Assembly: GCF_000767465.1 (NCBI RefSeq)
Contig: NZ_CP009291.1
Location: 1,505,501-1,569,500, forward strand
Length of the DNA: 64,000 nt
DNA from: Novosphingobium pentaromativorans US6-1
Lineage (GTDB): Bacteria > Pseudomonadota > Alphaproteobacteria > Sphingomonadales > Sphingomonadaceae
Direction of reading: 5' to 3'
Below the pieces are notes generated by a model. It was not told where the DNA came from. It did no database searches and worked only from the letters and a program-made list of their open reading frames with translations. Positions 14,425-64,000 of this stretch are shown in pieces; position 1 is the stretch's first letter, and each line of letters starts with the position of its first letter. A program made the translations under genes and the position numbers.

Positions 14425-14748
14425 TCAGCCGCGGGGGCCGAACAGGATGATGGCAGCGCCGGCGAGCACGACCGCGCCGCCGACGAAGTCCCACCGGTCG
14501 GGGGTGGTGCCTTCGACAGTCCACAGCCACAGGAGCGACGCGGCAACATAGACCCCGCCATAGGCTGCGAAGGCGCGACCGGCAGCGTCGGTCGGCACGA
14601 GAGTCAGCAGCCAGGCGAACAGGGCCAGCGACACCATTCCGGGCAGCAGCCACAAGGGGCTCTTCTCCAGCCGCCACCATGCCCAGAATGCGAAGCAACC
14701 GGCGATTTCGAACAGCGCCGCGAGCGGATAGACGAGGAACAGCTTCAT
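14425..14748 (-). CDS. YnfA/UPF0060 family membrane protein
   Basis: The product is 107 aa with four hydrophobic helices. Signature segments are [31 protein letters not shown] and [20 protein letters not shown]. It is an SMR-like small transporter found in many ars operons. Its ATG overlaps the arsB stop (ATGA). The transported substrate is not known. Confidence 0.9.
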
Positions 14749-46786: not shown

Positions 46787-48825
46787 TCGGTCACTTCATT
46801 CAAAACTTTGGCAATAGACGCTTCAATGGCCTTTAGCTCCACGTCGATCTCATCCAGATCACGCGGGGGTACATATTCGTAGAAATAGCGATTGAAGTTT
46901 ATCTCATAGCCAACAATCCCGATGTCGCCATCGGATTCGTCGACGTAGGCCTCGTCGATATAGGCATCATGGGCGTGGGGCGTTACCTCGGTTTCGAGGT
47001 AGTCATGGATATCGGTACCCATGGGCACGTTTTCGTAATCGGTCAGCTCATCGTCGGGGATCAGGTTCCCCTTCTTATCTTTCACTGGGTCAAGATCTTC
47101 ATCCCGTACGGCAAACGCTTTTTGAAAGGCCTTGATTAGCGCCATGTCAGCTTTTCCCAGCTTAGCGTCCTTTTTCGCGGCAGCTTTGGAAAAGCTTTCG
47201 ATCCAGTGCCAATCATGATCGACGCCCGTGTGCTTCGACAACACGGCGCGCCAGCGTTCCCGCTGATCGTCGGTGCGCTTTTCCCAAGCCTTGTGTTCTC
47301 CCAGCGCCTCTAACCCTGTGTCTGACACGACGATCTTGTGGCGCAAGGGGCGCAGCACCCTAATTCTGCGATAGCCAAAGTCCTCTGCGCCGACGATTAG
47401 GCTTTTTTTCGTCGGTTCGAAGTCGGCGTAGAGTTGCACAATATCGCGGATTTGATCGTCCCCGATTTTGCGCCGTTTGTTGCCCTCACTCTTGCGCAGC
47501 GGCTCAAACATCCCTGTCGCGTCGATCAGCTGAACCTTACCCTGCCGCTCCTCTGACTTGCGGTTGGAGAGAACCCAGATGTAAGTGCCGATCCCCGTGC
47601 GGAAGAAGATCTCGGTCGGCAGGGCAATGATTGCCTCAACCACGTCTTGGTAAAGAAGATGACGGCGGATTTCGGATTCACCCTGACCGGCGCTGCCGTT
47701 AAAAAGGGGAGAGCCCGACAACACGATCGCCGCCCGCCCACCGCCCTTCTCAGGGTCTTCGAGTTTGCTGAGCAGGTGCAACAGGAACAGCATCGAGCCA
47801 TCGCTGACACGCGGCAGCTTGGGGCCGAAACGACCCTCGAATTTCTGGTCGCGGTGTTCGCGCAAGACTTCGGCTTGGTCCATTTCCCATTTCTTGCCGA
47901 ACGGCGGATTAGAGACGCAGTAGTGGAATTTCTCATGGCGGAATTTGTCGGCTGAGAGCGTACTGCCAAGCTTGATGTTCTGGGACAGGTCGCGACCGGG
48001 GTCGGACTTGAGAGTCTTCAGAAGCATGCTCGCTAGACAGACAGCGTGAGTTTCGGATTCTAATTCCTGGCCATAGGGCACAAGGGTCGGGGCGGTGCCA
48101 TAGCGATCCTGCAGTGACTGCACGTGCTCCATGCCGTCGGAGATAAAGCCGCCGGTGCCGATTGTTGGGTCATAGAGCGTGCGGATGATGCCGGGGTTGT
48201 CGATAAACATTTGATCATCCGGTTCGAGCAAAAGCTCGATGCCCAAGTGAACAACGTCGCGGGGCGTCATGAAATCCTCGGCCGCCTCGTTCACCTCGGC
48301 CCCGAACCGGCGGATCAGGTGTTCATAGACATTGGACATGGTCCGCTCTGGAACGGCGTCGGGATGCAGGTCGATGGCAGCGAAGTTCTGGCAGATCTTG
48401 TAGAGAACGCCCTTCTTGTCCATCTGACTGATTGTATTGATGAAATCAAATTGCTCGAAGATTACCCGCGCGTTGCCGGAGAACTTCGCGATATAGTCTT
48501 CAAGGTTCTGACGTGTGCGGCCAGCCCCCAATGTTTCGAGGCTGTAGCTTGATGTGTTGTAGAACGGGTAGCCAGTTGCCTGACGGAGGATGACGTCGAC
48601 ATCGAGACCGTTTTCGATGGCCATTTTGTGCATCTTGGCGGCTTCTTCCCGAGTGGGCTCGAGAACACATTCCAGGCGTCGAAGAAGAGTGAAGGGAAGA
48701 ATGATCTTGCCGAAATCGACGTGCTTGAAGTTACCCCAAAGATCATCCGCATTCTTCCAAATGAAGTCAGCGAGTGACGTGTGGGTGTTGTTGGCTTTTG
48801 CCGTGGTTGATGTTTGTGTGTTCAA
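46783..48825 (-). CDS. hsdM: Type I DNA methyltransferase subunit HsdM
   Basis: The product is 680 aa. The N-terminal helical domain (LADFIWKNADDLWGNFKHVDFGKIILPFTLLRRLE) and the adenine methyltransferase core (DFMTPRDVVHL, DPTIGTGGF and catalytic NPPF near residue 305) are present. The only start in reach is TTG 48825, 6 bp from the IS inverted repeat, with no clear ribosome site, so the original 5' leader, and perhaps a few codons, was replaced by the IS. First gene of hsdM-S-R. Confidence 0.95.
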   Translation of the reverse strand: MNTQTSTTAKANNTHTSLADFIWKNADDLWGNFKHVDFGKIILPFTLLRRLECVLEPTREEAAKMHKMAIENGLDVDVILRQATGYPFYNTSSYSLETLGAGRTRQNLEDYIAKFSGNARVIFEQFDFINTISQMDKKGVLYKICQNFAAIDLHPDAVPERTMSNVYEHLIRRFGAEVNEAAEDFMTPRDVVHLGIELLLEPDDQMFIDNPGIIRTLYDPTIGTGGFISDGMEHVQSLQDRYGTAPTLVPYGQELESETHAVCLASMLLKTLKSDPGRDLSQNIKLGSTLSADKFRHEKFHYCVSNPPFGKKWEMDQAEVLREHRDQKFEGRFGPKLPRVSDGSMLFLLHLLSKLEDPEKGGGRAAIVLSGSPLFNGSAGQGESEIRRHLLYQDVVEAIIALPTEIFFRTGIGTYIWVLSNRKSEERQGKVQLIDATGMFEPLRKSEGNKRRKIGDDQIRDIVQLYADFEPTKKSLIVGAEDFGYRRIRVLRPLRHKIVVSDTGLEALGEHKAWEKRTDDQRERWRAVLSKHTGVDHDWHWIESFSKAAAKKDAKLGKADMALIKAFQKAFAVRDEDLDPVKDKKGNLIPDDELTDYENVPMGTDIHDYLETEVTPHAHDAYIDEAYVDESDGDIGIVGYEINFNRYFYEYVPPRDLDEIDVELKAIEASIAKVLNEVTE

Positions 48826-48893
48826 TGCTCAGTGAAGTGGTCCCGCCTTCTTGGACAGTTTGGCGGCTGAGTTAAGCTAATCCCGGTTGTCGT

Positions 48894-49784
48894 TCATGCC
48901 GCCTGTTTGATCATCAGGTCATGGGGGGCATGCCCCCCATGACCTGATTGCCCGATGCGCCGATAGGCCTCGACCGGGGTTCTCCCGGCTAGTCCCGAGT
49001 GCGGACGCTGGGTGTTGTAATAGGTGATCCACCGGCCAAGGCCAGCCCGCAGCTCCGAGCCGGTCTCGAAGGCGTGGAGATAAACGCACTCGTACTTCAG
49101 GGATCGCCAGAGGCGTTCGATGAAGACGTTGTCCATCCACCGGCCCCGGCCATCCATGCTGATGCGGACCTCGGCGTCACGCAGCACGCTGGTGAAGGCG
49201 TAGCTGGTGAACTGGCTGCCCTGGTCCGTGTTGAAGATTTCTGGCTTGCCGAACCGGGCCAACGCCTCTTCCAGCGCCGCGACACAGAAGCCGGCGTCCA
49301 TCGTGTTCGACAGCCGCCAGGCGAGCACCTTGCGGGTCGCCCAGTCCATGATTGCTACCAGATAGAGGAAGCCACGGCGCATCGGGATGTACGTCACGTC
49401 GGCGCACCACACGTGATTGGGCCGTTCAATCGCCAGCTTGCGCAGTAGATACGGATAGACCCGGTGCTGCGGGTGCGGATCGCTCGTGCGGGGCCGCTGG
49501 TAGATCGGCGTCAGCCCCATCTTCGCCATCAGGCGACGCACCCGACGGCGACCGACCTCGTGCCCGGCACGCCGCAGGTGCCGCGCCATCTGGCGGCTGC
49601 CGTACCACGGGCAGTCCAGGAACGTCGCGTCGATCACCGTCATCAGCGCCAGCGTCTCGTCCGTTTCCGGCACCGGTGCGTAGTAATACGACGAGCGGCT
49701 GATGCGCAGCAGGCGGCACTGCGCCGTAATCGACAGGCGGTGGTGAGCAGATTCGACCATCGCCCGCCTCCGGTCCACGCTCAT
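48894..49784 (-). CDS. IS3-family transposase OrfB (DDE integrase domain)
   Basis: The product is 296 aa from ATG 49784. The HTH_21-like N-terminus (RLSITAQCRLLRISRSSYYY) precedes the rve integrase core: WCADVTYIPM (first D), FNTDQGSQFTS (second D) and FIERLWRSLKYE (E). The run TTTTTTA near 49802-49808 allows -1 frameshifting from OrfA to make OrfAB. The frame is intact. Confidence 0.93.
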   Translation of the reverse strand: MSVDRRRAMVESAHHRLSITAQCRLLRISRSSYYYAPVPETDETLALMTVIDATFLDCPWYGSRQMARHLRRAGHEVGRRRVRRLMAKMGLTPIYQRPRTSDPHPQHRVYPYLLRKLAIERPNHVWCADVTYIPMRRGFLYLVAIMDWATRKVLAWRLSNTMDAGFCVAALEEALARFGKPEIFNTDQGSQFTSYAFTSVLRDAEVRISMDGRGRWMDNVFIERLWRSLKYECVYLHAFETGSELRAGLGRWITYYNTQRPHSGLAGRTPVEAYRRIGQSGHGGHAPHDLMIKQAA

Positions 49785-50065
49785 CGACCGAAGGCTTTCG
49801 CTAAAAAATCCCGCTCGACGACCAATTGCCCGATCTTGGCATGCAGCTTTTCCACCTCGCTCTCGCTGACGGCCTTGGCCACATCGCCAGCCCCGGAGAA
49901 CGTGCCTGCCATGCCCTCGATGGCCTGCCGCTTCCACGACGCGATCATCGTGTGGTGCACGCCATGCTTGGCTGCCAGCTCCGCCAGCGTCAGATCGCCC
50001 CGGATCGCTTCCAGCGCGACCTTGGCCTTAAAATCAGCGCTGTAGCGCTTCCTCGTCGTCTTCAT
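49781..50065 (-). CDS. IS3-family transposase OrfA
   Basis: The product is 94 aa, HTH_Tnp_1 type (RYSADFKAKVALEAIRGDLTLAELAAKHGVHHTMIASWKRQA), with a C-terminal leucine-zipper-like helix (SEVEKLHAKIGQLVVERDFL). Its TGA overlaps the OrfB ATG. The slippery T-run lies just before its end. Confidence 0.93.
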   Translation of the reverse strand: MKTTRKRYSADFKAKVALEAIRGDLTLAELAAKHGVHHTMIASWKRQAIEGMAGTFSGAGDVAKAVSESEVEKLHAKIGQLVVERDFLAKAFGR

Positions 50066-50152
50066 TCCCGTACCAATCCATCAGGTCGGGAGTAGCTTAA
50101 CACCCTGTCCAGAAAACCGGCACCACCTCACAGGTCTCGTTCTGATTGGTTC

Positions 50153-50356
50153 TTACACGCGAGCGCTCGCGGACTGACAGACAAAATCAAATACATCCTT
50201 GCCGTAGCTCGCAGCCGTCCGATCCGCCCCACTGCCCTGGTGGGCTTCAAGATTAAAGGCGTCGCGCTTGTGGCAGTTGATCCAAGCGAGCACTCTGTGT
50301 GTCATTGCCATTAGACTTGACCAATGCGACGACGCGGAGAGACTAACAAGGCTCAC
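50153..50356 (-). CDS. Possible small ORF coupled to druE
   Basis: The product is 67 aa. GTG 50356 overlaps the druE stop (GTGA). The sequence (HRVLAWINCHKRDAFNLEAH...) has no recognised domain, and it stops 22 bp before the IS repeat. It may be a real small gene, a truncated remnant, or chance. No other gene is seen between the IS and druE. Confidence 0.3.
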   Translation of the reverse strand: MSLVSLSASSHWSSLMAMTHRVLAWINCHKRDAFNLEAHQGSGADRTAASYGKDVFDFVCQSASARV

Positions 50357-53300
50357 TTCGCACTTCTTTTCACTGCGTAGTAGCTCTCTCCCACACCCGA
50401 AACCGCAGCCGATGAACGCAAAAGTTCACTCGCCTGCGCAGCGGGTGCCGAGCGAAAGTCATGGCGCGGCGGGCTACCCGCTATGCGCCAATATCCAAAC
50501 CCTTGGTCGAGCAGCACGAGGACCTTTTGACCATCGGCGTATTCAAGCTCGAGCTTGCGGCCGTGGTCCGAATTCTCCGTGACCTGGAGGTCGACATCGA
50601 GGCCAAACCTTTCGCCCAATAGCTCTGCTACTTCCGCTCGGTCGTCTTCATACTCCCAGTCATGGAAGATCCGATGGGGTGGCCGATCCTTCTTCAGTGG
50701 CTGGACCAGGATATCGACTTCAACTGGGCTATCCGCCTTCAGGTCAGAGGATAGAGCTTCGCACGTGCGCAGAAATAGGAGCATGGGTAGAGGCGCATTG
50801 AGATAGCGGTCGGCGTAGGTGATCCGCACAAGACTGCCAGGGCTCCAAACACCAGCCGCTTCCATCTGCTGCTTCAGTTTCGAGCCAAAGCGTTTGCCAA
50901 ACTGGCCAACCGGGCATTGCCCAAAACCTTGCATCAGCTCGACCTGATCACCAGCCGCAACCTGTCGCTCCAGATCATCCGGGTTGATCGGGTTGTAGGC
51001 GGTGGGGCCGCTGAGAGTACCGGCAACGACAGCATGCGTATCACCCAGACCCCATCGCTCCCCCGGCTGCGCCGCGTTCGCATCGCGTGAGAAGAACCCT
51101 GTGGTACGATCAGACGAGATCAATTCGGCCAGGGGTTTGCTCTCGAAGGGTGCGTCTTCTCCTTTGCCCAGGGCCAAAGAGAATTCGAACCGCACAGAGG
51201 CATCGCGCAAAAAGCGCCGTTCGACCTCTTCGAGCTTATTAAAGGAACTCGGATCAAGCACGAGTGTCACCGGAACGCCGCGGGCAGAGGCGGCAGAAAA
51301 GAACGTGCGCATCTTGGTTGAGGTCAGCTCTGCCAGGTCGAACACGGTAGGTAACAAGACGGAGATGCTGTCTCCACTTCGCGCTCTCAAAAGGAGTGTG
51401 TTCGCCGCGTCATTGATTGCCCTAGCATCAGGGACCGCACGGTCCTCCTGCGGCAGTTCAGCATTTGTCTCGAGAAATGCCTGAACCGCGAGGAGAGCAG
51501 ACCGCCGGTCGAGACGCCCCTGCTGCTTGTAGAGATCGGCAGCAAGGACGCAGGCCGAACACCCCATTTCGCATTCCTTGGGGCAATCGAGGACACGGGC
51601 CGCCCGTTCGAAGACATGATGGATGTCATCGAGAAGTCTCGGAGCGTATCCGGCACCTCCAGATGCCTCATCGAAGAGGTAGACCGACGGCACTCTGCGA
51701 CCGAGCTTGCCGTCTCGAGCTGCCACGGAAATTCCAAGCTCGCGCGGCTCGATTCCAAGCCAGCGTGCAAGACTCTCGCGCAAGGCTGCCCCAAGCGCCC
51801 AGGCCGCGCCGTCACTTTCCAGCCCAGGCAATTGCAGCTCAACCACATCGGTTAGAACTTCATGGCCCAGCGCTAGAGCACTCGTGATCGCATAACCTTC
51901 GTCATTGCCCGGACAGCGGTCTATCGCCTTTCGGTTCCTCGGCGTAAGCGGCCAATGGTCTTTGAGAGCGTCGGTCCCTGCATCCCCGGCCCGTCCGCAC
52001 TCCAGGCAAATCTCGTAACCCTGGTCGTTGGGTCCACGCGAATGATGGTAGATGTAACCTTCATGCGAAGCCCGGATCCGACCGGTTTCAGGCTGCAGCA
52101 TGGGTTGCCAAAGGGCATCACCGACACTGACCTTCGGAGACTTGGGTTCGATATAGACAGCCTGATCGGTGTCGGCATGCGGCTGCGCGTTCCAGTCGAC
52201 GCGGAACCCGGCCGGTTCAAGAAACTGCTCAATGGTAATGCTGCGCTCGCCGCAATGGGCACACTGGTCAGGCATCTGGTGATCGCTGCCCGCCCCACCA
52301 CAATGGTCGCACCACCAGGCCCAACGAAGGTTCTGCGGCTCACGCTGGCCACTGTCGATCGGGCTAAGCCAGTTGAGGGTGACCCCGGCCGATTTCCAAA
52401 CCAGCCCGTCTACAACGACCTCTGCCCCTGGGGCATACTCTCGGATGGCGATATCGGCGTTGCGCGTCGGGCATTCATAGCGCCGATCACGCGCGCCTTC
52501 CTCTTCCGGACGATTGCGCTCCTGCGCCTTCTGCGTCTCGGCGCATAGGGTATCGAACGGAACAACCGATGTCGGAAAACCGCTTCCAGGGATAAGCGAG
52601 CGATTGGCAAGCTCCTTCAAGAGGAACTCCTTGCACAAGCGCCGTGCCTGAAACTCGATCGCCTTCTTTGCCGGCCCTTCGAGCGCGTCCAAGTCTTCCT
52701 TTAGGCGCTGCCATGTACGACGGAAATTCGCAGCTTCCTGCTCAAACATCTCCGCCGCATGCCCCCGGATTTCGGTGTCGTATTCGAGACCTGTCCCCCT
52801 GAGGAGCCGCAGCAAACCTTGTTCGGTTGCGGATGCCGTAGTTGGTAGATCGAGCCATTCGCAAAAGGCATCCACGGGAGCGAGACCTTCGAAAGGACGA
52901 AGGTCAGCGCGACAGCCGAAGAAATCCCCGGTCTTGGTCCGGGCAAACTCCCCCTCAACCTCGCGAAACCATTGGGCGAGCAGATAGGCGTTCGCATGAC
53001 GCTGTGCGATCCGATCTGAATCAAGCGATACGCGCGGCGAGGCGAGTTTACGGCGCAAATAGCCCGCAGGATCGGCAAACGTTTCAAGATCGAGAGGTGT
53101 ATTGCGGGCAATTGTGAGACTTGTCGAAAAGCCCTGTCCGCGGCGCCCAGCGCGACCGGCCCGCTGATTGTAGTTGGCGATCGAGGGTGGAACATTGGTC
53201 ATCAGCACTGCTTCGATCGAACCGATGTCGACACCCATTTCCATGGTGGTCGAGCAGGCAAGTAGGTTGATATCGCCTTCCTTGAATTGCTCCTCGAACT

Positions 53301-56300
53301 CCCGGAGTCGGTGCGGGGGCTGCTGGGCACTGTGTTCCTCGGCCCGCAGATAAGGCGTGGCGAGCGCGGCCTGATCGTGAAGATCGGTCCAAAGGTGCAA
53401 CTGTCGAAGGGCTTGGACTTGCTTGTCCTCAACCAGCCAACCCCTGATCTCCTTTTTATCGGCTAACGAGAGTGGTCGCGTGCGTGGGACATTAGAAAAC
53501 TCAACCGGCAAGACCGCTTTGCCGTCGATCTTGCTTCCAGACCCAACAAGATTGGGTGACCTGCCAAATACAAGTCGCGGTAGAACGCGACGCGTTAGGG
53601 GGCATTGCCAAGCTCGATCGACCGCCTCGATCTCGGCCTTCTGCTCGAGCCGCAGGCTGAATGTACCACCAACACCCGAAAGAAGGGGAGTCAGCTGATT
53701 CCAGGCGGCATGCATGACCTGATTGATTTCATGGCGGTCGCGCTGAGAAGTAAGGTCAAGGTTCAGAGCTGACGCCAAGAGAAGGATGGAGTCGGGCTGA
53801 CGCCCCTTAGTGTTGACCAAAGGCCAGGAGACGTCGCGCTTGGCGCCAGGGGGCTGGTCGGGCCCAATCACATTGCGAGGCCGCGCGCGCCCAGGCATCC
53901 AACGCGCATCACCGTCGTCCACTTCAAGGGCAAACTGGCCGCGAAGATAGTCGACCATGTAGTAGAGGAAGCCGCGCCAATCTTCGATTGAATAGCCCTT
54001 CTGGCCGATAAGCTCAGGTAGCTTATCCGGGCCAATCCGCTCGATATCCGGGAAACGGAGCCGTGCCAGGCCAAGCGTCTCCATCGCATTGGCATTGCGC
54101 GGACGACGGGCAAGTTCGCGCAAGAGCATGAAGCGCGCCAGCGCTTCCCGGTTATCGTGAAAACGTTCGCTGCGATCGAGGTCCCAGACCTTGGCCATCA
54201 TGCCAATGGCTGGCTCAGAAGCGAGCCCGGATACGAGGTCCTTCCAGGATATTCCGGTTGTCGCGCCACCCGCGAGCTCCGCGTCAATCTTGGCGATATC
54301 ATCCTTGAACGCAGGCATGTCTGCCACGAGGTTCGCTAGAGCAGCCTTCTTTTTGAGCAGCTCTTCCCTGCGCTCATCGGTCAGGTCGCTACCCTGGGCA
54401 GCCTTCTGGACGGCATGGTAGATAAAGCCGCGGACAAAGCCCCGCTCACCGTTGGTTTCAATATTGGCAGCGAAGCGAGCTGTTCCCTGCCTGCTGTCTG
54501 AAAAGCTGATCAGCTGACGGCCATCGAACGGCAGGGCGTGTTCCGCCTGATGTGGCGACACACCCTCAAGGAGGATCGGTGCCGCATTCTGGGTGAGGAA
54601 TGGTGTGCCAAAGCGAAAGGGAAAGACCGCCGGTCGCCCGCGCCGCTTGTTTCCGAGACAGGCCGGGCAACGTCCTTCGTCCAGCTGGGTCAGATGAAAA
54701 TGCCCTGCCTCGCCAGTGAACTCGCCGCTGGATACATCGAAAGCGGTCGCGGTAGCTTCGGATTTCGGATTAATGGCAATCAGCCGCGGATGGCCGATCC
54801 CCTCGTGCTCATCTTCTTCATCGTCATCATCATGATCGCGATCACGATAGCTATTTTCGCGAAACTCATCTGCATCATGATCACTTCGCCGCGGTACGAT
54901 CCTGTCGCCCATGTCATCGGCCGGGAGGAAGGGCTCGCCACAATCGAGGCAGTTCTGAATTTCGAACACCATCGATTGGCAATGCGGACATTGATCCCGA
55001 TGGTCGAAGAGCACAGCGCCAAATGGCCAATCCTTGGGCCGCATCTCGCCCGGGCAGTCGGCATTGATGCAGGTCCAGAGCCCGGCAATTGCCCGCGTGA
55101 AGCTGTGCGCTCGCATCGGTAGGACAGGCTTCGCTTCGCTGGCATTATGGGCAGACAGATCGAGCAAAATCCTTTCGGCGTCGGGCGAGAGCGCCTTAAG
55201 CGAAGCCAGGGTCTGAGGCTCGCCTTCCAGCCTCTCGGCAACCGACGAAGCTGCCGGATCATCGGACGCTGTAAGGACCTTCGAGAGGTCGACCGGCTGA
55301 GGCTTTCCCACAACGACATGCGCCCGCTCAAGCGGAACGCCAGCAATGTCGGCAAGGAATCTCTGAAGGTCGTCGCGGGCCTTCTGGTCGTCAGCAGAGC
55401 CGATGGTCGCCGACGTCGCAACGAAGCGGACCTGATCCGGCGTCACATCGAATGCGTTCATCACCCGGCGAAGCAGGAGCGAGAGCTCCGCCGCTGCCGA
55501 GCCGATGTAACTGTGCGCTTCGTCAATAACGATCCAGCGCAGCTTGCCTTTTGATGCGTCGAGGATCGGACGATCCTCGCGCCGGATCGTCATGTATTCG
55601 AGCATCGTCTGGTTGGTAACAAGGATCGGCGGTGGGTTGGCCCGGAGGGTTTCGCGGTAAAGAACCTGATGCGGTATCTCGTGCTCGGCCTTGTCGCGAT
55701 TGGACTTTCGCGCCGTTCCCATCAATCCGTTGTAGAGGGCAAAGCGGACATCGCCGCGAAGCGGCTTGGTCCAGGCTGTAAGGCGCTTCTCCTGGCTCGC
55801 GATAAGTGCGTTCAGCGGATAGAGCATGAGCGCCCGAACCCCTGTCAGAGGACCTTGCTCTGCGGACTCCCGGACCAGATCATCGAGCATTGGAACCAGG
55901 AAGCATTCGGTCTTTCCCGACCCCGTGCCGCTCGAAACCAGAACCGATTGCGGCTCTTGCGTGCTGAGCAGTTCCCACGTCGACAGCTGGTGCGCGTAGG
56001 CGGGGTAATCGAAGCGTAGATCAGTATCCGACGTTTGGGTGATCGCGTCGATCGTGCGCTGATGCAGCAGCGCTTGAAGTTGGTTGGGGCTCTTTCCTGA
56101 GGATACATAGCCGGGAGCAGCCTGAAAAAGCTGTTCGGAAAGGAGGCTACCGTTTGCTGGGTCCGTACCGGCAAGCGTGCTCCGGAGAAAAGCGTTGAGC
56201 CCTTCGTGCCGGATACCCGCCCGCGAGACCACCGCTTCGGCGAGCCCAGTCCTCAGCCGCTGGTGTACCTCCATCGGCGACAATCGGGATGTAGGGAGGG

Positions 56301-56316
56301 GATCACTGGCGGCCAT
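50353..56316 (-). CDS. druE: DruE-like giant helicase (DUF1998), Druantia
   Basis: The product is 1987 aa from ATG 56316 (GGAG 8 nt upstream). An SF2 helicase core: Walker A SSGTGSGKTE (about 130), DEAHSYIGSA (about 265), helicase-C ACSTTMEMGVDIGSIEAVL...QRAGRAGRRGQG (about 1020-1060). A DUF1998 region follows with GGAGYAPRLL and a four-Cys cluster CPKECEMGCSAC (about 1580). The last 170 residues look like a PLD-fold/MIT_C-type domain (ADRYLNAPLPMLLFL ... GRKLELEYADGQ...DQGFGYW). Size and partner (DruH-like, 14-bp overlap) indicate Druantia type III. DISARM DrmA is shorter and has other partners. Confidence 0.85.
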   Translation of the reverse strand: MAASDPLPTSRLSPMEVHQRLRTGLAEAVVSRAGIRHEGLNAFLRSTLAGTDPANGSLLSEQLFQAAPGYVSSGKSPNQLQALLHQRTIDAITQTSDTDLRFDYPAYAHQLSTWELLSTQEPQSVLVSSGTGSGKTECFLVPMLDDLVRESAEQGPLTGVRALMLYPLNALIASQEKRLTAWTKPLRGDVRFALYNGLMGTARKSNRDKAEHEIPHQVLYRETLRANPPPILVTNQTMLEYMTIRREDRPILDASKGKLRWIVIDEAHSYIGSAAAELSLLLRRVMNAFDVTPDQVRFVATSATIGSADDQKARDDLQRFLADIAGVPLERAHVVVGKPQPVDLSKVLTASDDPAASSVAERLEGEPQTLASLKALSPDAERILLDLSAHNASEAKPVLPMRAHSFTRAIAGLWTCINADCPGEMRPKDWPFGAVLFDHRDQCPHCQSMVFEIQNCLDCGEPFLPADDMGDRIVPRRSDHDADEFRENSYRDRDHDDDDEEDEHEGIGHPRLIAINPKSEATATAFDVSSGEFTGEAGHFHLTQLDEGRCPACLGNKRRGRPAVFPFRFGTPFLTQNAAPILLEGVSPHQAEHALPFDGRQLISFSDSRQGTARFAANIETNGERGFVRGFIYHAVQKAAQGSDLTDERREELLKKKAALANLVADMPAFKDDIAKIDAELAGGATTGISWKDLVSGLASEPAIGMMAKVWDLDRSERFHDNREALARFMLLRELARRPRNANAMETLGLARLRFPDIERIGPDKLPELIGQKGYSIEDWRGFLYYMVDYLRGQFALEVDDGDARWMPGRARPRNVIGPDQPPGAKRDVSWPLVNTKGRQPDSILLLASALNLDLTSQRDRHEINQVMHAAWNQLTPLLSGVGGTFSLRLEQKAEIEAVDRAWQCPLTRRVLPRLVFGRSPNLVGSGSKIDGKAVLPVEFSNVPRTRPLSLADKKEIRGWLVEDKQVQALRQLHLWTDLHDQAALATPYLRAEEHSAQQPPHRLREFEEQFKEGDINLLACSTTMEMGVDIGSIEAVLMTNVPPSIANYNQRAGRAGRRGQGFSTSLTIARNTPLDLETFADPAGYLRRKLASPRVSLDSDRIAQRHANAYLLAQWFREVEGEFARTKTGDFFGCRADLRPFEGLAPVDAFCEWLDLPTTASATEQGLLRLLRGTGLEYDTEIRGHAAEMFEQEAANFRRTWQRLKEDLDALEGPAKKAIEFQARRLCKEFLLKELANRSLIPGSGFPTSVVPFDTLCAETQKAQERNRPEEEGARDRRYECPTRNADIAIREYAPGAEVVVDGLVWKSAGVTLNWLSPIDSGQREPQNLRWAWWCDHCGGAGSDHQMPDQCAHCGERSITIEQFLEPAGFRVDWNAQPHADTDQAVYIEPKSPKVSVGDALWQPMLQPETGRIRASHEGYIYHHSRGPNDQGYEICLECGRAGDAGTDALKDHWPLTPRNRKAIDRCPGNDEGYAITSALALGHEVLTDVVELQLPGLESDGAAWALGAALRESLARWLGIEPRELGISVAARDGKLGRRVPSVYLFDEASGGAGYAPRLLDDIHHVFERAARVLDCPKECEMGCSACVLAADLYKQQGRLDRRSALLAVQAFLETNAELPQEDRAVPDARAINDAANTLLLRARSGDSISVLLPTVFDLAELTSTKMRTFFSAASARGVPVTLVLDPSSFNKLEEVERRFLRDASVRFEFSLALGKGEDAPFESKPLAELISSDRTTGFFSRDANAAQPGERWGLGDTHAVVAGTLSGPTAYNPINPDDLERQVAAGDQVELMQGFGQCPVGQFGKRFGSKLKQQMEAAGVWSPGSLVRITYADRYLNAPLPMLLFLRTCEALSSDLKADSPVEVDILVQPLKKDRPPHRIFHDWEYEDDRAEVAELLGERFGLDVDLQVTENSDHGRKLELEYADGQKVLVLLDQGFGYWRIAGSPPRHDFRSAPAAQASELLRSSAAVSGVGESYYAVKRSAK

Positions 56317-59300
56317 TCTTGAGCTCCGAAAGGGCATAGCCAAAGGCTTTGGCAAAGTAGTCGGGGTGACGTCGTTCGACGTCCTTGACGGTCAGGACCT
56401 GCTCCTTCTCAAGAGAAGCACGTCCGGTAGCGGACAGAGCAGCGGCGAAAGGAGCATCGAAGACCCGCATCAGCGCTTCGACGAAGTTCTCTCTTGGCAG
56501 TAGCTCGCTGAAAGCAGGCCGAAAAGGGTTGAAGCCGCCGGCATCCATATTGATGCCCTCGCTCGTATGGCTCGTGAAGTGGTTGCGAAGCTCTTCCCAG
56601 CTCAACGGCGAGAAGTCCCGGCAAATGAGGGGTGCAAGCTGCGGCGCACGCGCCGCGATCTCGTTCTGACGTTCCGTGATGTTTGCCAACGCCCACTGAG
56701 GGTCATCGAGCCGGCTGACCAGATAATTACCTTGAGCCTGAAAGGCAGTGTCCCAGGCCTTGATCGGCAAAAGGGACCAGCTTGAGCACAGGCCGTCAAA
56801 CAGCTCTAGGATCGTCGAGAGGTGTTGCTCCTCGCAGCGATAAAGAAGGAGCGGCGCAAGCGGACCGGCAATCTCAAACTTGCTGAAGATTTCGAAGGTT
56901 TGCGGAGGCAAGCCATTGAGCGACAGCGCCAAGTCCATGACTGCACGAATGGTCTGGGTCGCTTCGGAAGACATGGGCTCGGCAGCGAGTTCCTCCGCCA
57001 GCCTCACGAGGTCCTCGCGCGCTTGCAAAAGAGGCTGTGCCATGGCCCGGCCGAGCCTGTGTTGCGGCACGTCGTGAACCGGATCGCCGTCGATAAACTT
57101 TGGCCTCGTGAGGACGCGAGCACCTTCGCGCAGATAGACGAGCCATGGACCGCGCAATCGTGGCAGCTGAATCAATTGCCCTCCGAGGCCGCCAAGCAAT
57201 CCGTCAAACGGACCGAAATCCACTTCTTTCTCGGGAGCTCCAAGAAAGCGGCCGCCAACGCGGACATCCTCGCCGACAATGGCCGTCTTTGGACGCAGCC
57301 CTCCCGAAGGTTCCCACTCAAGAGAATTGCCGAATTCCGTGACGTACCAGTTGTCATTGCTGCCGTTGTGAAAGTCGAGCCGGACCTGGGCATCGATGCC
57401 GAGCGGCCGCATCAAGGCGGCAATGTCGTTCCGCAGAGCCGACAGGCCAAGTTCGACATCGACCTTCCAACTCGCCTCAAGCGACGCTCCAGCGTGATGG
57501 GCAACTTCGCCCATCAGCATCGCACGGCCCGGTGCACGGGCAACGGTGTCACGAAGATCGGCAAGACCTAGGACAGCTTCGCGCCTGAAAAGTTCGCCAT
57601 CCCAGGTCGTCAGCCATTCTTTCGATCGCAATGGCACATTGAGTTCGAAGGTGGAGCCATGGTCGGGGGTGAGGCGCAAGCCGAGCAGCGCGCGACGGGG
57701 CGGATCGATACGCACCCGCCAGCGACGGTCTGCAATCGGCGTTTCATCGCTGAGCACCGCTTCTCCGGTCCAACCTTCCAAAAGGATTTCCGCATGGGCC
57801 GCATTGATCCGCTGGCTGAGTGCGAATTCAGCCGGCAGAACCAGTGCATTCGTCCGGTCCCGAACATGCTTGGTCGCTCCATCGAGCCAGGCGAACTCGC
57901 AATGCCCAGGACCCGCGTTGACAAGATCATCGCGCCAGGTGCTTTCCCCTGCAAACCGCCAGCCGACCTCTCCACGCGTTGCAGTGCGCCGGGAAACCCC
58001 GTCTTCGACTTCTGCATGCAGCGGATGTTTGATCAACCGTTCGCCGCCGGGTGCCTGCACACCGGTCGCCTCTTGGGCGACTATGGTCAGGCGATCCTTA
58101 CGATCTGCACTCTGTCCCGTCCGCACCAGAAATGCGTCGCCATTGGGCTTCTCGGCGATGATCTGGCCAGCACAGCGGTAGAGCGAACGACCAGGTGCAA
58201 AGGCGAAGTCCTCGGCTTCGATCTCTGTATTGCCGTCCTTGCCGCGAAGCATCCAATCGTGCGGAATATCGACAAAGACTGGTTCGGCGCGATAACCGCC
58301 CGACCCCTGACCGATAAGGGAAAACGCGCCTAGCTCGGTGTCTCCGGTCCGCTGCTCGAATATCCGCAGTCCATGTCCAACCGCTTTGCCGCCCGGCAGG
58401 ACAAAGCTTTGAGCGAGTCTTTCGCCGCGCGCATGGAATTCGGCGGTGACGGAGAGGTCCAATGGAAAATCGATCGCAGCTTCGCTGCGCATAGCGCGCG
58501 CGATCCAGCAATTGCCTGATTCAACCTCCAGGTAAGCCAGCCGACCGGAGATACGGTCCGCCAAGGCACCCGAGGGCTGAAGAAACACCCGGACATATTC
58601 ACCTGCGGACAGCACACGATCCTTGTCGTCCCAGCGACCTTCAAGATGGAAATCCAGGCTTTCGCGCCATTCACCATCCTGCGAACGCATCAACCGTCCG
58701 ACCCGGATACTCCCTGTTCCGGTCAGCTTTCTGGCTTCAAGGAGCGTATCGATGAGGCCCGCAGCTGCCCCGTCGAGCGTCATCGGCAGTTCATCTCGCC
58801 AGTCTTCGTAAGCGTGGTCCAGCCGGGCCGAGTAAGGGCGACCGTCAACTGGCACTTCCTTGTCGATGAATGCACGAAGCTCGACGATCTTGAGGGCAAG
58901 TTCACCGCAGATTGCGTGCATTTCCGGGCTGCGCCAGATTGAGGGAAGCAAATATTCGTTGCGTTCGCAGATCGAGACAGCGGTAGCTATGTCCTGAATG
59001 TCTGCCCCGAGCAGCTCACCGACTGCCCGCTCCAGGAAGCGACGCGGCCAGCTCGCACCGCCTGCGATTGCTGCTGCAGGAAAGCCCCCATGCCGCGCGA
59101 GATTGGAGAGACGCTGGTTTCCGTGCGCCGTGATAAGAGGTTCAACGCCCCAGGCATCGAAACCGCGGTCTGCAAGTGCCCGCCATTCCGATTGTGGGAG
59201 TTGGAGCTTCAAAACCGCTTCGATATCGGCCCAGCGCTGCATGCCGCCCTGGTAGGAGCGCCGAAACCAGTCTGCCGCCCACATGACGAAAGCTGGAGCT

Positions 59301-59602
59301 AGCGACGGCCGCAGCAAATCCGATGCGAGATTGGCAGCAAGCTTTGCTTCGATCCGCTGAAAAATTCCCGGTGCGAGCTTGTAGCGGTAAAGCGGCAGTC
59401 CGGTGGGGCGAGGTAAACCAAGATCCCCGCAAGTCTTACCCAAAGGATGCGGTCCGCTATCTGCTGCCCTGGCCAGCTGGATCGCGCGGATCATCAGGAT
59501 ACGCGAGCCGCCGCTAGCGTGAATGTCATCGGCAATCTTGCGCAGCCGAACCGGGTCATTTTGCGCCGCGTCGATTTCAGATTTGAAATCGCGTCCTTCC
59601 AT
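56303..59602 (-). CDS. druH: DruH-like protein, Druantia type III
   Basis: The product is 1099 aa from ATG 59602; a TTG at 59632 would add 10 residues. No enzyme motif is visible. The N-terminal third is helical (FVMWAADWFRRSYQGGMQRW), the middle is beta-rich with many Trp/Gly, and the C-terminus is again helical. It resembles, from memory, the large STY4851/ECs_5259-type proteins found next to DruE-like helicases. The 14-bp overlap with druE and common length make DruH the best call; function is unknown. Confidence 0.72.
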   Translation of the reverse strand: MEGRDFKSEIDAAQNDPVRLRKIADDIHASGGSRILMIRAIQLARAADSGPHPLGKTCGDLGLPRPTGLPLYRYKLAPGIFQRIEAKLAANLASDLLRPSLAPAFVMWAADWFRRSYQGGMQRWADIEAVLKLQLPQSEWRALADRGFDAWGVEPLITAHGNQRLSNLARHGGFPAAAIAGGASWPRRFLERAVGELLGADIQDIATAVSICERNEYLLPSIWRSPEMHAICGELALKIVELRAFIDKEVPVDGRPYSARLDHAYEDWRDELPMTLDGAAAGLIDTLLEARKLTGTGSIRVGRLMRSQDGEWRESLDFHLEGRWDDKDRVLSAGEYVRVFLQPSGALADRISGRLAYLEVESGNCWIARAMRSEAAIDFPLDLSVTAEFHARGERLAQSFVLPGGKAVGHGLRIFEQRTGDTELGAFSLIGQGSGGYRAEPVFVDIPHDWMLRGKDGNTEIEAEDFAFAPGRSLYRCAGQIIAEKPNGDAFLVRTGQSADRKDRLTIVAQEATGVQAPGGERLIKHPLHAEVEDGVSRRTATRGEVGWRFAGESTWRDDLVNAGPGHCEFAWLDGATKHVRDRTNALVLPAEFALSQRINAAHAEILLEGWTGEAVLSDETPIADRRWRVRIDPPRRALLGLRLTPDHGSTFELNVPLRSKEWLTTWDGELFRREAVLGLADLRDTVARAPGRAMLMGEVAHHAGASLEASWKVDVELGLSALRNDIAALMRPLGIDAQVRLDFHNGSNDNWYVTEFGNSLEWEPSGGLRPKTAIVGEDVRVGGRFLGAPEKEVDFGPFDGLLGGLGGQLIQLPRLRGPWLVYLREGARVLTRPKFIDGDPVHDVPQHRLGRAMAQPLLQAREDLVRLAEELAAEPMSSEATQTIRAVMDLALSLNGLPPQTFEIFSKFEIAGPLAPLLLYRCEEQHLSTILELFDGLCSSWSLLPIKAWDTAFQAQGNYLVSRLDDPQWALANITERQNEIAARAPQLAPLICRDFSPLSWEELRNHFTSHTSEGINMDAGGFNPFRPAFSELLPRENFVEALMRVFDAPFAAALSATGRASLEKEQVLTVKDVERRHPDYFAKAFGYALSELKNGRQ

Positions 59603-59712
59603 CCCCGCACTCACCCCCGGCACCTCTCGCAATCATGGATGCCAGACAACACCCTCACTTACCTCAACATCTCTGAACGTTACTTCATAATCAATGATGA
59701 AGGTCAGGTTTT

Positions 59713-62700
59713 TCAGTGCATTGCCCGAGAGGTCGAAATCGAGCCCTCGTAAAATGCATTCACAACGCAAGACCAGCGCGCGTTCATGACACCGTCGATA
59801 CCCCGTCCAAGATCCCAGATGACGGTATCGCCATTCTCCAGTTTAGCCCTCACGAAACGATCGTGCAGGTCGCCGCCCGACCGCCGTGACTTCTGTGCGA
59901 GGTGGAGGGGAACCGAGGCCAGCATACGGTTCCACCGATCTTCAAGGTCCTGGCGCTGGTCACGCGTACTTTCAGGGTCACGAGTCTGCACGGAATCGGC
60001 GTCGAATGTCACGATTTGCACGGCCGCGATTTCCGAAGCGAGCTGTTCAAAGCGACCGATGAAATTGATGAGGCGCCCGCGAGCCTGCTCGTCAGCGCAA
60101 CAATAGGGGTCCTGGATTTCGAGCCGTTCTACTCGCGCGTCGCGTGCGTACTGCTCGAAAATTGTCCAGTCGCGTTGTCCATATTGTTCAAACACGACCC
60201 GCTGAACGAAAGGAACGCGCGCTTCTGCCGCCTCGACGGGAGTACGCACGGAGAGAATGGGGCGCCGGTTTTTGCGCTCGGCATTGCTCGATGCTGTCTC
60301 ACCAGGATCAAAGTGAGACTGCGAGCGCGCCGCTTCTTCTAATCCTGGTTCTGCCGCGTGCTCCGCAGCCGGATCAAGGTTTGCGGAACTCGCTGTGTTG
60401 TCGCTCGCGGGTCCGCGGGAGCGAGCACTCTCCTCGTCTCCCGTCGGCTCTTCGATTTCCGGCTGCGCGACTGGCGGGGCAGGCGGTTCCGAATGTCGAA
60501 TACTCGCGCTGTAATCAGTGTCTTGAAGGTCCATTGGCGCCTGCCCTGCGGCGGCATACGCACTACTTCGATCACGGTTCTCTGCAGGGCGCCCGTCGAG
60601 CACATCGGAAAGCAGGTCTTCTACATCGCGATCGCTCTCCGGCGGCATGAGGAGACCCCGGCTCAGCGAACGCTTGCGCTCCATGAGGGCGTCGAGACGC
60701 TGGTCGAAGCTTGAAGGTCCGATTGCTTCGTCCGGATGGACAGCCATCGGGATGTGAATGGTCACCGGCCTGGTCTGACCGATCCGGTAGGCGCGGTCCG
60801 TCGCCTGATCTTCAACGGCCGGATTCCACCAGCGGGACAGATGGATCACATTGTTTGCAGCGGTGATCGTGAGTCCCACGCCCCCAGCCTTGGGAGACAG
60901 GATGAGAACGTCGAATGAGGCTGGCGAACTCTGAAAGGCAGTGACCATCTCCTGGCGCTTATGGCCCGCAACCTTCCCGCTGATGCACATCGGGCGGCGC
61001 TCGAGCGCGAAGCGCTCCTGAATTGCCATCGCGAGGAAGGCCTGCATCTCGAGATCTTCGCAGAATAGCAGGGCCTTTTCGCCGCGCTGCCTGACCTCCT
61101 CAAGGATTTCGAAGGTCTTCTTCAGCCGTGCAGATTGCCCGATGTACTCGTCGATGTTCGAAATTCCGCGCGGCGGTGACGGGTGGAGCGATGTACCGCG
61201 CAGCATATGCAGCACTTTGAGCATCGCACCCTGTTCGCCACTTTCCCGTAGCGCTCGCGCTCTGGCCAGCACGAGGTCGTAGGCCTGCGCTTGCGCGGTT
61301 GGCATCTCGACCGGATATTTGCGGGCCTTCTTCTCCGGCAACCCGGTCAGGATTTCGTCCTTCATCCGGCGCAGCATGAAAGGCGGAAGTTCTTTGTCAC
61401 GCTCGATCAGACGGTGCTGGAGATCGCCAAGGCGCTCGAGATCGTTCGCAGGGAAGCTGCTTTCGAATTCCCGGCTCGAGCCAAGAAAACCTGGATAGAC
61501 CGTATCGGCAATCGACCACAGGTCCTGCAACCGGTTCTCGACCGGTGTGCCCGTCATAGCGATCTGGATTGTGCCGTTCAGCGCCTTTGCGGCGCGGGTC
61601 ATCTGGCTGGCAGGATTCTTGAGCTTCTGTATTTCATCGTAGACGATTGCAGCGAACGGAATGCGCGCGAAGCTCATGTGATAATCGCGCATTGTTTCGT
61701 AGGTCGTCAGGACGATCCCGGCGTCATTCCATTCGGACACGTCGAGACGCGAGGTTCCCCCGCGAATGTCGCTCCCAGCCTCGAGACGGAAATTGCGCAG
61801 GTTGGCGCCGAACGCCTCGACAACAGGCCCCATGAGCTCTGCCTCGATGTGCTGCGAAAGCTCGTCTTGCCAATTCCTCAGAAGACCTGTGGGCGCGACA
61901 ATCAAGACGGGCTTCGGGTGAGGCGTTTTGCTGCGCAGCCACAGCAGGAACATGAGCGCCTGGAAGGTCTTTCCGAGCCCCATATCGTCGGCGAGCAAGA
62001 CGCCCGGCATGCGGCGCTCCCAGGCCTCGGCAAACCATGCGAACGCCTGCACCTGGTGAGGCTTGGGTTCCGATCTCAGTCCCTTGGGGAGCTCGGGAAC
62101 ATCGAAATCCTGCACTTCGGCGTCGGGACGAGGCAGCCGCGCATAGTCCAGCTGCTCGAAATTCTCTCCGACCTGAAGGAAGAAGATATCGACGCTCTCG
62201 CGTTCGGTTCTGTCCGAGGCGCGTCCCTCGACCTCATCAGCGATCTCACGTTCAAGGTCTGCAATTGCTCGCGCAGCCTGCAGGGTTGCAGGCGTCGCGG
62301 GGATGCTTTCGTCGCGCCAGGCGATCGTTTCCTTGCCTGCATCAATCGCTGTCTCGACTTCGCTTGCGATCGTTTCAGCTTCACCTGGAGCCAACTCGAC
62401 ATGACGCGCGTCGGGCGGATCCCCGATCCGCAATCCAAACCCTTCGGGCAGCCAGCTGTTCGGCTTGGGTTTGATCCAGGGCAAAACCGGCTTTTGCCAG
62501 ACCTCGATCCCGCTGACCCGCTCGGAAAACTGCTGTGTCTCGATGAAGAGACGATCAGCTGCCTCGTCATCGCCTGCCGCGTCAAGCTTGAGCTCCTCAC
62601 GCAGGATACGTTGCGGCGAACGCAGGAATTCGCGCTTTTCCTGTGAGGTGCCCACCTGCTTTGCGCGCACGATGTCGAGGGCCTTGCCCAGCATCGGGTC

Positions 62701-63528
62701 AAGAAAAAGGAGCGTTCCGTCGGAAAGCAGATAGCTTCGCCGCCCGCCGTCCTGACCCCGGAACCTGCGCTGAAAATGCTGATTGTCCTGCGGGGTAAGC
62801 AGCGACGCTTCTTCTTCGTCGACCAGGTCACCCTCAGCGCTCTCGCTTACGTTTCTCGAGAAGAGGACGGGGTCGAAGTCGAAACGTCCATGATCGGTCT
62901 TTGCGTTGAGTGAAAAATTGGCGGCATAGGCAATCCGGACACGCTCGAGAAAGCCATCCGCCTCGATGCCGGTGCCGATGTCATCTCCGAGCGTCGAACG
63001 TAGCTCGGCAAAGGCAGCACGGCGCTGATCGGGATCATCAGCCGCATTGACTGCAAGTGCGGCCTGGAAGGCCGAATAGATCGGCTCGGGAATTCGTCCC
63101 ACACGCCCGCCCTCTCGCAGACGCGCGCCAGCGATGTCGGCTCGAACCGGCAGACCACCGCGGCGGACCCATTTCGTATCGACTTTGATTGTTCCTTCAG
63201 CGAGCGAACCTCCCGAGTTGAGCTGAAGGGTTATGGATGTAGCCGGAGGAAGGCCGAGGGCGAATGCGTCGGCCTCATCGAGCCGGGCAACGATCTGCGG
63301 TGGAAGGACTATGCCTTCCGCCTCCTCGCTGATCTGACCATCATCATCGAGAGCTCGGGCCAGCGCCAGAGCGGCCTGACCAGCTTCAGGGGCTGCTCTG
63401 GGCCACTCCGAGACCGGCACAATTCCGCTTGATGCTCGCCGGAAGAGCCCACCTGGCTGTTCGCGGAGAAGCGCAATCGTCTCACCGCCGCCCTCGATCT
63501 GTGTGGCAATGAACTTGGTCGTTACCAT
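59713..63528 (-). CDS. zorD: ZorD-like SNF2 helicase, Zorya
   Basis: The product is 1271 aa from ATG 63528. The N-terminal 450 residues carry a SNF2-associated region with no clear motif. The SNF2 core starts near 480 (KPHQVQAFAWF), with LADDMGLGKT (about 515), VYDEIQKLKNP (about 630), LSPKAGGVGLTITAAN and DRAYRIGQTRPV. An acidic low-complexity linker (about 1000-1110) leads to a C-terminal domain (LEIQDPYCC...HDRFVRAKLENGDTVIWDLGRG) like MIT_C/PLD folds. Its ATG overlaps the end of the EH-signature gene by 7 bp, the Zorya type I order zorC-zorD. In Zorya, ZorD degrades phage DNA. Confidence 0.8.
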   Translation of the reverse strand: MVTTKFIATQIEGGGETIALLREQPGGLFRRASSGIVPVSEWPRAAPEAGQAALALARALDDDGQISEEAEGIVLPPQIVARLDEADAFALGLPPATSITLQLNSGGSLAEGTIKVDTKWVRRGGLPVRADIAGARLREGGRVGRIPEPIYSAFQAALAVNAADDPDQRRAAFAELRSTLGDDIGTGIEADGFLERVRIAYAANFSLNAKTDHGRFDFDPVLFSRNVSESAEGDLVDEEEASLLTPQDNQHFQRRFRGQDGGRRSYLLSDGTLLFLDPMLGKALDIVRAKQVGTSQEKREFLRSPQRILREELKLDAAGDDEAADRLFIETQQFSERVSGIEVWQKPVLPWIKPKPNSWLPEGFGLRIGDPPDARHVELAPGEAETIASEVETAIDAGKETIAWRDESIPATPATLQAARAIADLEREIADEVEGRASDRTERESVDIFFLQVGENFEQLDYARLPRPDAEVQDFDVPELPKGLRSEPKPHQVQAFAWFAEAWERRMPGVLLADDMGLGKTFQALMFLLWLRSKTPHPKPVLIVAPTGLLRNWQDELSQHIEAELMGPVVEAFGANLRNFRLEAGSDIRGGTSRLDVSEWNDAGIVLTTYETMRDYHMSFARIPFAAIVYDEIQKLKNPASQMTRAAKALNGTIQIAMTGTPVENRLQDLWSIADTVYPGFLGSSREFESSFPANDLERLGDLQHRLIERDKELPPFMLRRMKDEILTGLPEKKARKYPVEMPTAQAQAYDLVLARARALRESGEQGAMLKVLHMLRGTSLHPSPPRGISNIDEYIGQSARLKKTFEILEEVRQRGEKALLFCEDLEMQAFLAMAIQERFALERRPMCISGKVAGHKRQEMVTAFQSSPASFDVLILSPKAGGVGLTITAANNVIHLSRWWNPAVEDQATDRAYRIGQTRPVTIHIPMAVHPDEAIGPSSFDQRLDALMERKRSLSRGLLMPPESDRDVEDLLSDVLDGRPAENRDRSSAYAAAGQAPMDLQDTDYSASIRHSEPPAPPVAQPEIEEPTGDEESARSRGPASDNTASSANLDPAAEHAAEPGLEEAARSQSHFDPGETASSNAERKNRRPILSVRTPVEAAEARVPFVQRVVFEQYGQRDWTIFEQYARDARVERLEIQDPYCCADEQARGRLINFIGRFEQLASEIAAVQIVTFDADSVQTRDPESTRDQRQDLEDRWNRMLASVPLHLAQKSRRSGGDLHDRFVRAKLENGDTVIWDLGRGIDGVMNARWSCVVNAFYEGSISTSRAMH

Positions 63529-64000
63529 CGATCATTCCAGTTGCGGCCCCGGCCTCGCCCGAAACGGGGATGCGCGATTGATGTCCGGCGATGGATGATA
63601 CCGGCGAACTTGCCTTCCCAACCAGGACTCGCTGGGACATGGGACTCATACTCGAAATCCGACCGTCCGCTGGTGGTCCGCAGCTTCCCGCCGTCGTAGA
63701 CTTTTGCGTAGAGTTTCGGAGCTCCGGGATCGGTGTCACTCCAGAAGCGGCAGGATCCGTTATCGCTCCATTCCGATATGCGCAGATCGCCTATCTGCAT
63801 GATGATGGATGAAGACTGGGAGGGACCTCCTCGAATTTGACCGTATTCTGGTCGTTCGCCACTCTGGCGAATAAGAGAATCGATTTGATGTTTCGCGCGT
63901 GATCCCAGCGCGGGCCATGCGTCGGTGACCAATCCTTCATCAAGGTATGCAATCCAAAACGCTTCGCGTTGCTTCCACTGATCAGGCCGATCCGTGGTCT
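63522..64000 (-). CDS. zorC: ZorC-like protein, C-terminal part (cut by window edge)
   Basis: The frame is open through the right edge: 159 residues, from ...DQWKQREAFWIAYLDEG to NDRW. The end has the EH_signature pattern: FWIAYL, VTDAWPALG, then IGDLRISEWS (Glu) and YESHVPASPGWEGKF (His). EH-signature proteins are the ZorC component of Zorya type I, thought to bind DNA. ZorA and ZorB (the membrane motor) would be expected upstream, beyond 64000. Confidence 0.72.
   Translation of the reverse strand, partial: TTDRPDQWKQREAFWIAYLDEGLVTDAWPALGSRAKHQIDSLIRQSGERPEYGQIRGGPSQSSSIIMQIGDLRISEWSDNGSCRFWSDTDPGAPKLYAKVYDGGKLRTTSGRSDFEYESHVPASPGWEGKFAGIIHRRTSIAHPRFGRGRGRNWNDRW

Follow-up and report, generated by a model that had tools for sequence, protein, structure and literature searches.

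A Zorya type I-Druantia type III gene block, zorABCD-druHE, in Novosphingobium pentaromativorans and related sphingomonads

Do the Zorya-like and Druantia-like genes that adjoin one another in Novosphingobium pentaromativorans US6-1 form one unit, or are they two neighbors in a defense island? The question arises from a 64,000-nucleotide stretch of contig NZ_CP009291.1, here called the window, at one end of which the original prediction recognized zorC-, zorD-, druH- and druE-like genes and joined them in one apparent operon on a mobile element. In our reading, to which we assign a probability of roughly 60%, the complete gene sets of Zorya type I and Druantia type III make up one co-directional unit, zorABCD-druHE, which has passed as a single block, on mobile elements, between sphingomonads. 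This reading rests on the identity of the six genes, their open frames and retained motifs, their conserved order, the boundaries of the block and the correlated distances of the proteins, and also on an independent pairing of the two systems in genome G372, their co-occurrence in the order and the published synergy of Druantia III with Zorya II.

The six genes lie on the minus strand in the order zorA-zorB-zorC-zorD-druH-druE, as read from the window and the fetched DNA that flanks it. Coordinates are those of the window, and positions in the flanking stretch L002 become window-frame positions when 49000 is added. The gene for the EH-signature protein ZorC (468 amino acids [aa]; L002:14522-15928) reaches the window edge with its 3' part (63522..64000) and is followed by the genes for the SNF2-family helicase ZorD (59713..63528; 1271 aa), DruH (56303..59602; 1099 aa) and the YprA-like helicase DruE (50353..56316; 1987 aa). 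The coordinates given in the original prediction, the overlaps of 7 bp between zorC and zorD and of 14 bp between druH and druE, and the distance of about 110 bp between zorD and druH are all exact when compared with the open reading frame (ORF) positions. The spacer (59603..59712, no strand) runs from the zorD end at 59713 to the druH start at 59602 and measures 110 bp if the 1099-aa start is taken. A search for MotAB-like genes beyond position 64000 found zorB (L002:15925-16653; minus strand; 242 aa) and zorA (L002:16653-18578; minus strand; 641 aa), which add overlaps of 4 bp and 1 bp and complete Zorya I.

PADLOC hidden Markov models type all six genes as Zorya type I and Druantia type III, with scores of 1207 bits for ZorA1 (full length), 273 bits for ZorB1, 820 bits for ZorC1 (full gene; 319 bits for the piece in the window) and 1995 bits for ZorD1. 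The 1099-aa and 1987-aa proteins, predicted to be DruH-like and DruE-like, score 2381 bits with DruH3 and 2088 bits with DruE3. The names first given to zorC, zorD, druH and druE are thereby upheld, as is the earlier call of a type I-like system from ZorCD, the Zorya being of type I and not of type II. Judged by these sequence models, the identity of the six genes is firm.

Do the proteins retain the features expected of working components? ZorC also matches EH_Signature in Pfam (128.5 bits). ZorB has an OmpA-type peptidoglycan-binding domain (Pfam), and its Asp22 aligns with Asp24 of the solved ZorB 8vvn; D24N is among the mutants tested in PMC11890865. In ZorD, which has a SNF2 domain (Pfam), aa 329-962 align to the E. 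coli ZorD structure 8qy7, the DDMGLGKT motif included, and both DDMGLGKT and DEIQ are kept. For the Mrr-like nuclease domain that has been described in the ZorD family, Pfam returned no match in this ZorD, and it gave none of any kind before aa 487, and the residues before aa 329 are unaligned to 8qy7. For ZorA, Pfam gave no motor family and phmmer found no solved relative.

On the Druantia side, a DruH profile built from 41 sequences matches the solved DruH 9tud with an expectation value (E) of 1.6e-49. There is no Pfam match for druH, and the AlphaFold2 model, with helical ends and a beta-rich middle (predicted template-modeling score, 0.65), gave no meaningful match in a fold search against the PDB (copy to April 2026). 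The sequence-profile match to 9tud is better evidence for DruH than the structure search, and by homology the product is likely the phage sensor of Druantia III. DruE aligns to the solved DruE 9tu7 (E, 1.4e-259) across both the Walker A and the DEAH motif, contains DEAD, Helicase_C and Zn-binding MZB domains (Pfam), and keeps the motifs GTGSGKT and DEAH. At its C terminus it carries a PLD-type nuclease signature, D-x-Y...H-x-R (here DRY...HGR), which is invariant in 12 aligned DruE proteins. The classical HxKxxxxD motif is absent from all 13 close DruE proteins searched; since the variant signature is common to the window DruE and E. coli DruE, the lack of HxKxxxxD does not imply an inactive domain. 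The direct neighbors of the adjacent druH and druE are zorD, an insertion sequence (IS), hsdM, hsdS and hsdR, and among these, to which the search was limited, there is no other druantia gene.

A further feature concerns the C-terminal ends of the two helicases. ZorD ends in a PLD-like (MIT_C-type) domain at aa ~1105-1271, which 8qy7 lacks, as that ZorD (1080 aa) stops 16 residues past the aligned helicase. The Pfam MIT_C match (5.6e-4) is below the cut-off. In a structural model, 110 of whose 287 residues have a predicted local distance difference test score of <50, the end folds compactly with good confidence there, and Foldseek matched it to PLD-superfamily members such as Tdp1 (E, 8.7e-5 to 1e-3), with low TM-scores (template-modeling scores) of 0.2-0.35 by query length. 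The domain carries invariant DPY and HDR motifs, and hhalign placed these in register with the motifs of the DruE end (probability, 63%; E, 7e-5), while control comparisons with the preceding part of DruE (0.4%) and with DruH (0.1%) failed. From this in-register alignment and its failed controls, both helicases probably end in related PLD-type domains. By analogy with the extra region found in 53 of 59 Druantia-linked ZorE leaves (PMC13192584), we considered the ZorD extension as a mark of Druantia linkage. This idea was rejected: the DPY...HDR domain is also present in five of five ZorD proteins of the order that occur without Druantia, and the Druantia-linked ZorD of G372 is without it.

How far is the arrangement conserved? 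A scan of a species-genome collection with DruH patterns, which reaches close relatives only, gave 13 loci, whose genera we take to belong to the Erythrobacteraceae and Sphingomonadaceae, except for one metagenome-assembled genome (MAG) labelled Rhodospirillales. In 12 of the 13, zorD is directly upstream of druH, and nine hold zorABCD together with druH and druE (druE of L032 being cut by the contig end). Of the others, three have a contig that ends inside Zorya, and one (L036, with a partial DruH of 34% identity) is without Zorya. The order sample considered below adds a full block in G231, whereas G226 of that sample probably duplicates L033. A further search gave 46 DruH homologues of at least 57% identity, some of which may be loci already counted here. 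Gene order, strand and tight spacing are retained in copies that are ~25% different at the DNA level. The copies in Qipengyuania and Tsuneonella are ~95% identical in DNA to the window block and, given how different these genera are, this identity suggests that the block has been transferred between genera.

The boundaries of the block can be read from the distant copies. In L034, read on both sides, DNA similarity begins 9 bp ahead of the zorA start and ceases at the druE stop, interrupted for ~0.3 kb in zorD between the helicase and the end domain, and neither flank matches the window. The druE-side flanks of L015, L029 and L030 are likewise unlike the window, save for one 205-bp piece in L030, as is the zorA-side flank of L032 over the 0.6 kb that can be read. 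These copies bear directly on a different explanation, according to which the two systems are independent neighbors in a defense island that travel together on one mobile element without cooperating. Such an explanation would fit the presence near the block of a type I restriction system (42312-48825) and a GmrSD-type gene (40073-42220), the persistence of hsdM beside druE in four relatives (L025, L028, L031 and L033), the occurrence of each system alone in the same order, and the finding of Druantia III beside type I restriction-modification (R-M) genes elsewhere, type I and IV R-M being enriched in the 20-kb surroundings of Druantia III according to PMC13192584. However, it would not lead one to expect that the readable flanks of five distant copies (L034, L015, L029, L030 and L032) differ from the window while the six genes match, that order, strand and tight spacing survive such DNA divergence, or that the pairing recurs in other arrangements in G372 and, with Zorya II, in E. 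coli. We therefore consider independent neighbors unlikely.

Distance matrices of Zor and Dru proteins correlate with r of 0.79-0.96 (p of 0.0015 or less; 11 loci; no correction for host phylogeny), and this correlation between the systems about equals that within each of them across the six proteins. Co-inheritance of the Zorya I and Druantia III halves is well supported by these sequence comparisons. A pairing that is both conserved and co-inherited fits cooperation, and functional cooperation of the two halves is likely.

The copies could nevertheless be decaying cargo without activity. One locus of this kind exists: in G205 (L013), druH is preceded by a 60-aa zorD stub, the rest of zorABCD is lost, druE is interrupted by ~0.84 kb, and a GmrSD-type gene (Pfam) and type I restriction-like ORFs (judged by eye) stand in place of Zorya. 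This locus is a decayed block. The frames also look interrupted in L035, a MAG contig, and in G372, and an IS3-like element has come to lie ~0.2 kb behind druE in the window's genome. Against general decay, all six frames are open in each of the 10 loci that hold them complete, namely, in the window's genome and in nine other copies; for L015, the fetched stretch ends within zorA, the readable part of which has no stop codons. The motifs described above are kept, and the IS lies outside the six genes. Inactivity of the block is, accordingly, very improbable.

Are the two systems associated beyond the close relatives? In a sample of 296 genomes of the order, DruH (E, 1e-3) was found in seven genomes, ZorD (E, 1e-100) in eight and both in three, so that the co-occurrence survey proposed with the original prediction gives a Fisher p of 4e-4. 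In a sample of 289 genomes of the class, DruE (E, 1e-120) was found in five and ZorA of type I (E, 1e-10) in 11; the two genomes with both systems are the window's and G372 (p of 0.012). G372 belongs to an alphaproteobacterium of another family, and its druH-druE and zorABCD are convergent neighbors ~0.33 kb apart, as read from two contigs that share 149 identical bases at their overlap in zorD. A third arrangement is present on one E. coli plasmid, where zorA2-zorB2-zorE (Zorya II) is divergent from druH-druE at a distance of 211 bp.

Several observations weigh against the joined unit. Without the window's genome, the p value rises to 0.007 in the order and to 0.13 in the class, both uncorrected for host phylogeny, and druH and druE of G372 both look interrupted. 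In gene trees of 11 loci, Zor and Dru genes share only 2 to 5 of 6-8 splits. Within the Zorya genes, only 2 to 3 splits are shared in the same loci, so that the shallow splits are simply recombined or poorly resolved. Two relatives carry an extra co-directional gene exactly at the zorD-druH junction. In addition, each system is found alone, which indicates that neither needs the other. Five of the eight ZorD-bearing genomes of the order have Zorya I without DruH. In the same family, G154 (61% DruH) and G246 (32%) have open druH and druE frames and no Zorya I, and three of the four other class genomes have Druantia III without a neighboring Zorya I. No Zorya I was found nearby in any of the seven phylum stretches read, which come from nine other phylum genomes with DruE after two on short fragments (G805 and G819) were left out, and the nine plasmid contexts read among 28 DruE records are all without Zorya I (eight with no Zorya seen and one with Zorya II). 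Defense systems, moreover, cluster in islands anyway.

Some of these counts have a defined reach. All 28 plasmid DruE records are of <60% identity, the plasmids gave three distant ZorD matches at an E of 1e-120, and the viral contigs gave no match to the DruH patterns. Outside the close clade, adjacency was scanned by tblastn with ZorA-D of this operon, a search blind to Zorya II, as its failure to detect the annotated system of that type in L058 shows. Zorya II may thus stand next to Druantia III in those phylum loci that lack annotation and on the S. medicae plasmid, likewise unannotated. The contigs of G462 and G367 extend ~1.2 and 2.6 kb beyond druH, and the whole genomes are without a ZorA1 match; G097 has a partial DruH only.

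Is the block also one transcription unit? The operon-like layout claimed in the original prediction stands, whereas a single transcript does not follow from it, in view of the conserved AT-rich stretch in the 110-bp spacer, which could be a promoter, and the extra genes in two relatives. It is conceivable that druHE forms its own transcription unit behind zorABCD, with a promoter in the spacer, so that the halves may cooperate at the level of protein or DNA while being expressed separately. An AT-rich stretch of the spacer is conserved among 11 aligned loci, and the extra genes sit precisely at this junction: L026:9146-10000 and L027:9021-9998, in Erythrobacter SD-21 and EC-HK427, are mutually unrelated, one encoding 284 aa without a Pfam or PADLOC match and the other 325 aa with DUF6745. 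A consensus scan of the spacer, by contrast, gave no terminator-like site and no minus-strand sigma-70-like match (one match is on the plus strand), in a scan that finds fewer promoter-like sites in the sequence than in its shuffles, and the gap is short with all genes co-directional. We rate separate expression of druHE as a possibility that falls a little short of an even chance. A promoter may lie in the junction, or the junction may serve as a slot for extra parts, or both may hold true; with different genes inserted in two species, it is a place to look for further components.

How does the zorABCD-druHE block compare with known systems? An association of Druantia III with Zorya in enterobacteria, mentioned in the original prediction, is in print for Zorya II (PMC13192584 and PMC12458937), and genome-level co-occurrence of Druantia III with Zorya I is already known from Pseudomonas aeruginosa (PMC10889362). 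The E. coli pair resembles the block in that DruH and DruE stand beside a ZorAB-motor system, recurrently and on a mobile element. It differs in that the Zorya here is of type I (with ZorC and ZorD and no ZorE) and co-directional, whereas the copy on the E. coli plasmid is divergent. In P. aeruginosa, the two systems likewise occur together above expectation; however, the portions of PMC10889362 available to us deal with genome-level co-occurrence and complementary phage ranges and describe no joined gene block. With the Zorya I of E. coli (8qy7) and of Shewanella (PMC11890865), the block shares the zorABCD set, the SNF2 core of ZorD and the MotB-like Asp of ZorB. Among the open-access papers on Druantia with Zorya and on Zorya genes that our searches listed and that we consulted, none was seen to describe Zorya I and Druantia III joined in one gene block.

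Could the published mechanism apply to this block? According to PMC13192584, the synergy between Druantia III and Zorya II requires RecBCD, with ZorE acting on the resulting DNA, DruH is a likely late phage sensor, and DruE loads onto 3'-tailed DNA and is a nuclease on long DNA with exposed single strands. In the same study, DruH, DruE and ZorE were enough against phage Bas37. ZorAB has been proposed, in PMC11890865, to sense incoming phage and to recruit ZorCD or ZorE; the original tests of Wu et al. are summarized in PMC13427033. The host of the window is, unlike that of the E. coli pair, AddA bearing and without a RecC match. AddA was over the cut-off in all six genomes searched (the window's; G226 and G231, which carry the block; G205, with the remnant; G154, with druHE alone; and G372), and none of the same six gave a match to RecC; RecB and RecD were not searched for. 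In the RecC control, matches were obtained in two of 14 genomes, E. coli and B. subtilis, one of them over the cut-off. With AddA present and no RecC match, cooperation here would need a DNA-processing route other than RecBCD, and it is unlikely that the published RecBCD hub applies unchanged to this block.

From the relatives, a working of the block can be proposed. ZorAB would be an ion-driven membrane motor that detects injury of the envelope early on and brings in ZorC and ZorD, which would damage DNA, DruH would sense late phage proteins, and DruE would load onto 3' single-stranded DNA and then cleave it. Taking the proposal further, the two arms might cooperate by acting on common DNA intermediates, ZorCD taking the part played by ZorE in E. 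coli, and these intermediates could come from AddAB or another enzyme and not from RecBCD. Tentatively, we extend this to one integrated system, in which the Zorya motor and DruH would be early and late sensors that feed the helicases ZorD and DruE, with their related PLD-type ends, for the processing of the same infection-made DNA in a RecC-less cell, with intermediates supplied by AddAB or by the block itself. On this view, pairing with Druantia III would be general to Zorya motor systems and not a matter of ZorE, as might be expected from the fact that types I and II have been joined to it separately in three arrangements (co-directional, convergent and divergent). Zorya II, the nickase ZorE and RecBCD underlie the synergy published so far, and a conserved block of Zorya I with Druantia III in an AddA-bearing lineage without a RecC match sets these factors apart. 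Should the block prove synergistic, the principle would require neither ZorE nor RecBCD. The block is a natural test of whether Zorya-Druantia partnerships are real working units and a compact, naturally joined set for testing how neighboring defense systems become one.

On what kind of element does the block reside? An F-type TraC ATPase and a TraG_N protein are encoded inside the window, and a TrwC-type relaxase and a TrwB-type coupling protein just upstream of zorA, beyond a gene with a Peptidase_S24 domain. The contig measures 3.98 Mb (chromosome-sized), and from these conjugation genes it follows that a conjugative element on this contig carries the six genes as cargo. The mobile element of the original prediction is thus borne out. 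A candidate right end is formed by L003:15259-17250 and L005:1-1349, where an AAA_34 (P-loop NTPase pore-1) gene precedes an ORF that resembles a tyrosine integrase, judged by its N terminus, and adjoins a tRNA-Leu gene in L005. This region is possibly the right end of the element; no repeat of the tRNA-Leu region of at least 13 bases was present in the window or L003.

The S24 gene (L002:19052-19687, window-frame 68052-68687; 211 aa) is divergent from zorA and 94-100% identical in seven linked relatives, and L048 has a copy of it, 78% identical, behind the zorD of a Zorya I system without Druantia. Its product perhaps regulates the block or the element. On the other side, the IS3-like element (48832-50131) lies between hsdM and druE and is absent from the four relatives in which hsdM is next to druE. 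The flanking matches share 3 bases at the IS site in three of these (L025, L031 and L033), as expected of a recent IS3-like insertion with target-site duplication. The type I restriction system beyond it comprises hsdM, hsdS and hsdR, and the GmrSD-type gene encodes a 715-aa GmrSD_N protein with a C-terminal Schlafen AlbA_2 domain (Pfam); GmrSD-type genes are also present beside Druantia III in L013 and L016. A HipA-type kinase gene (HipA_C and Couple_hipA; 38739-40043) is located between the conjugation genes and the defense cargo, and the window further carries copper and arsenic resistance genes for a P-type ATPase, a multicopper oxidase, CopB and ArsB (3668-16031).

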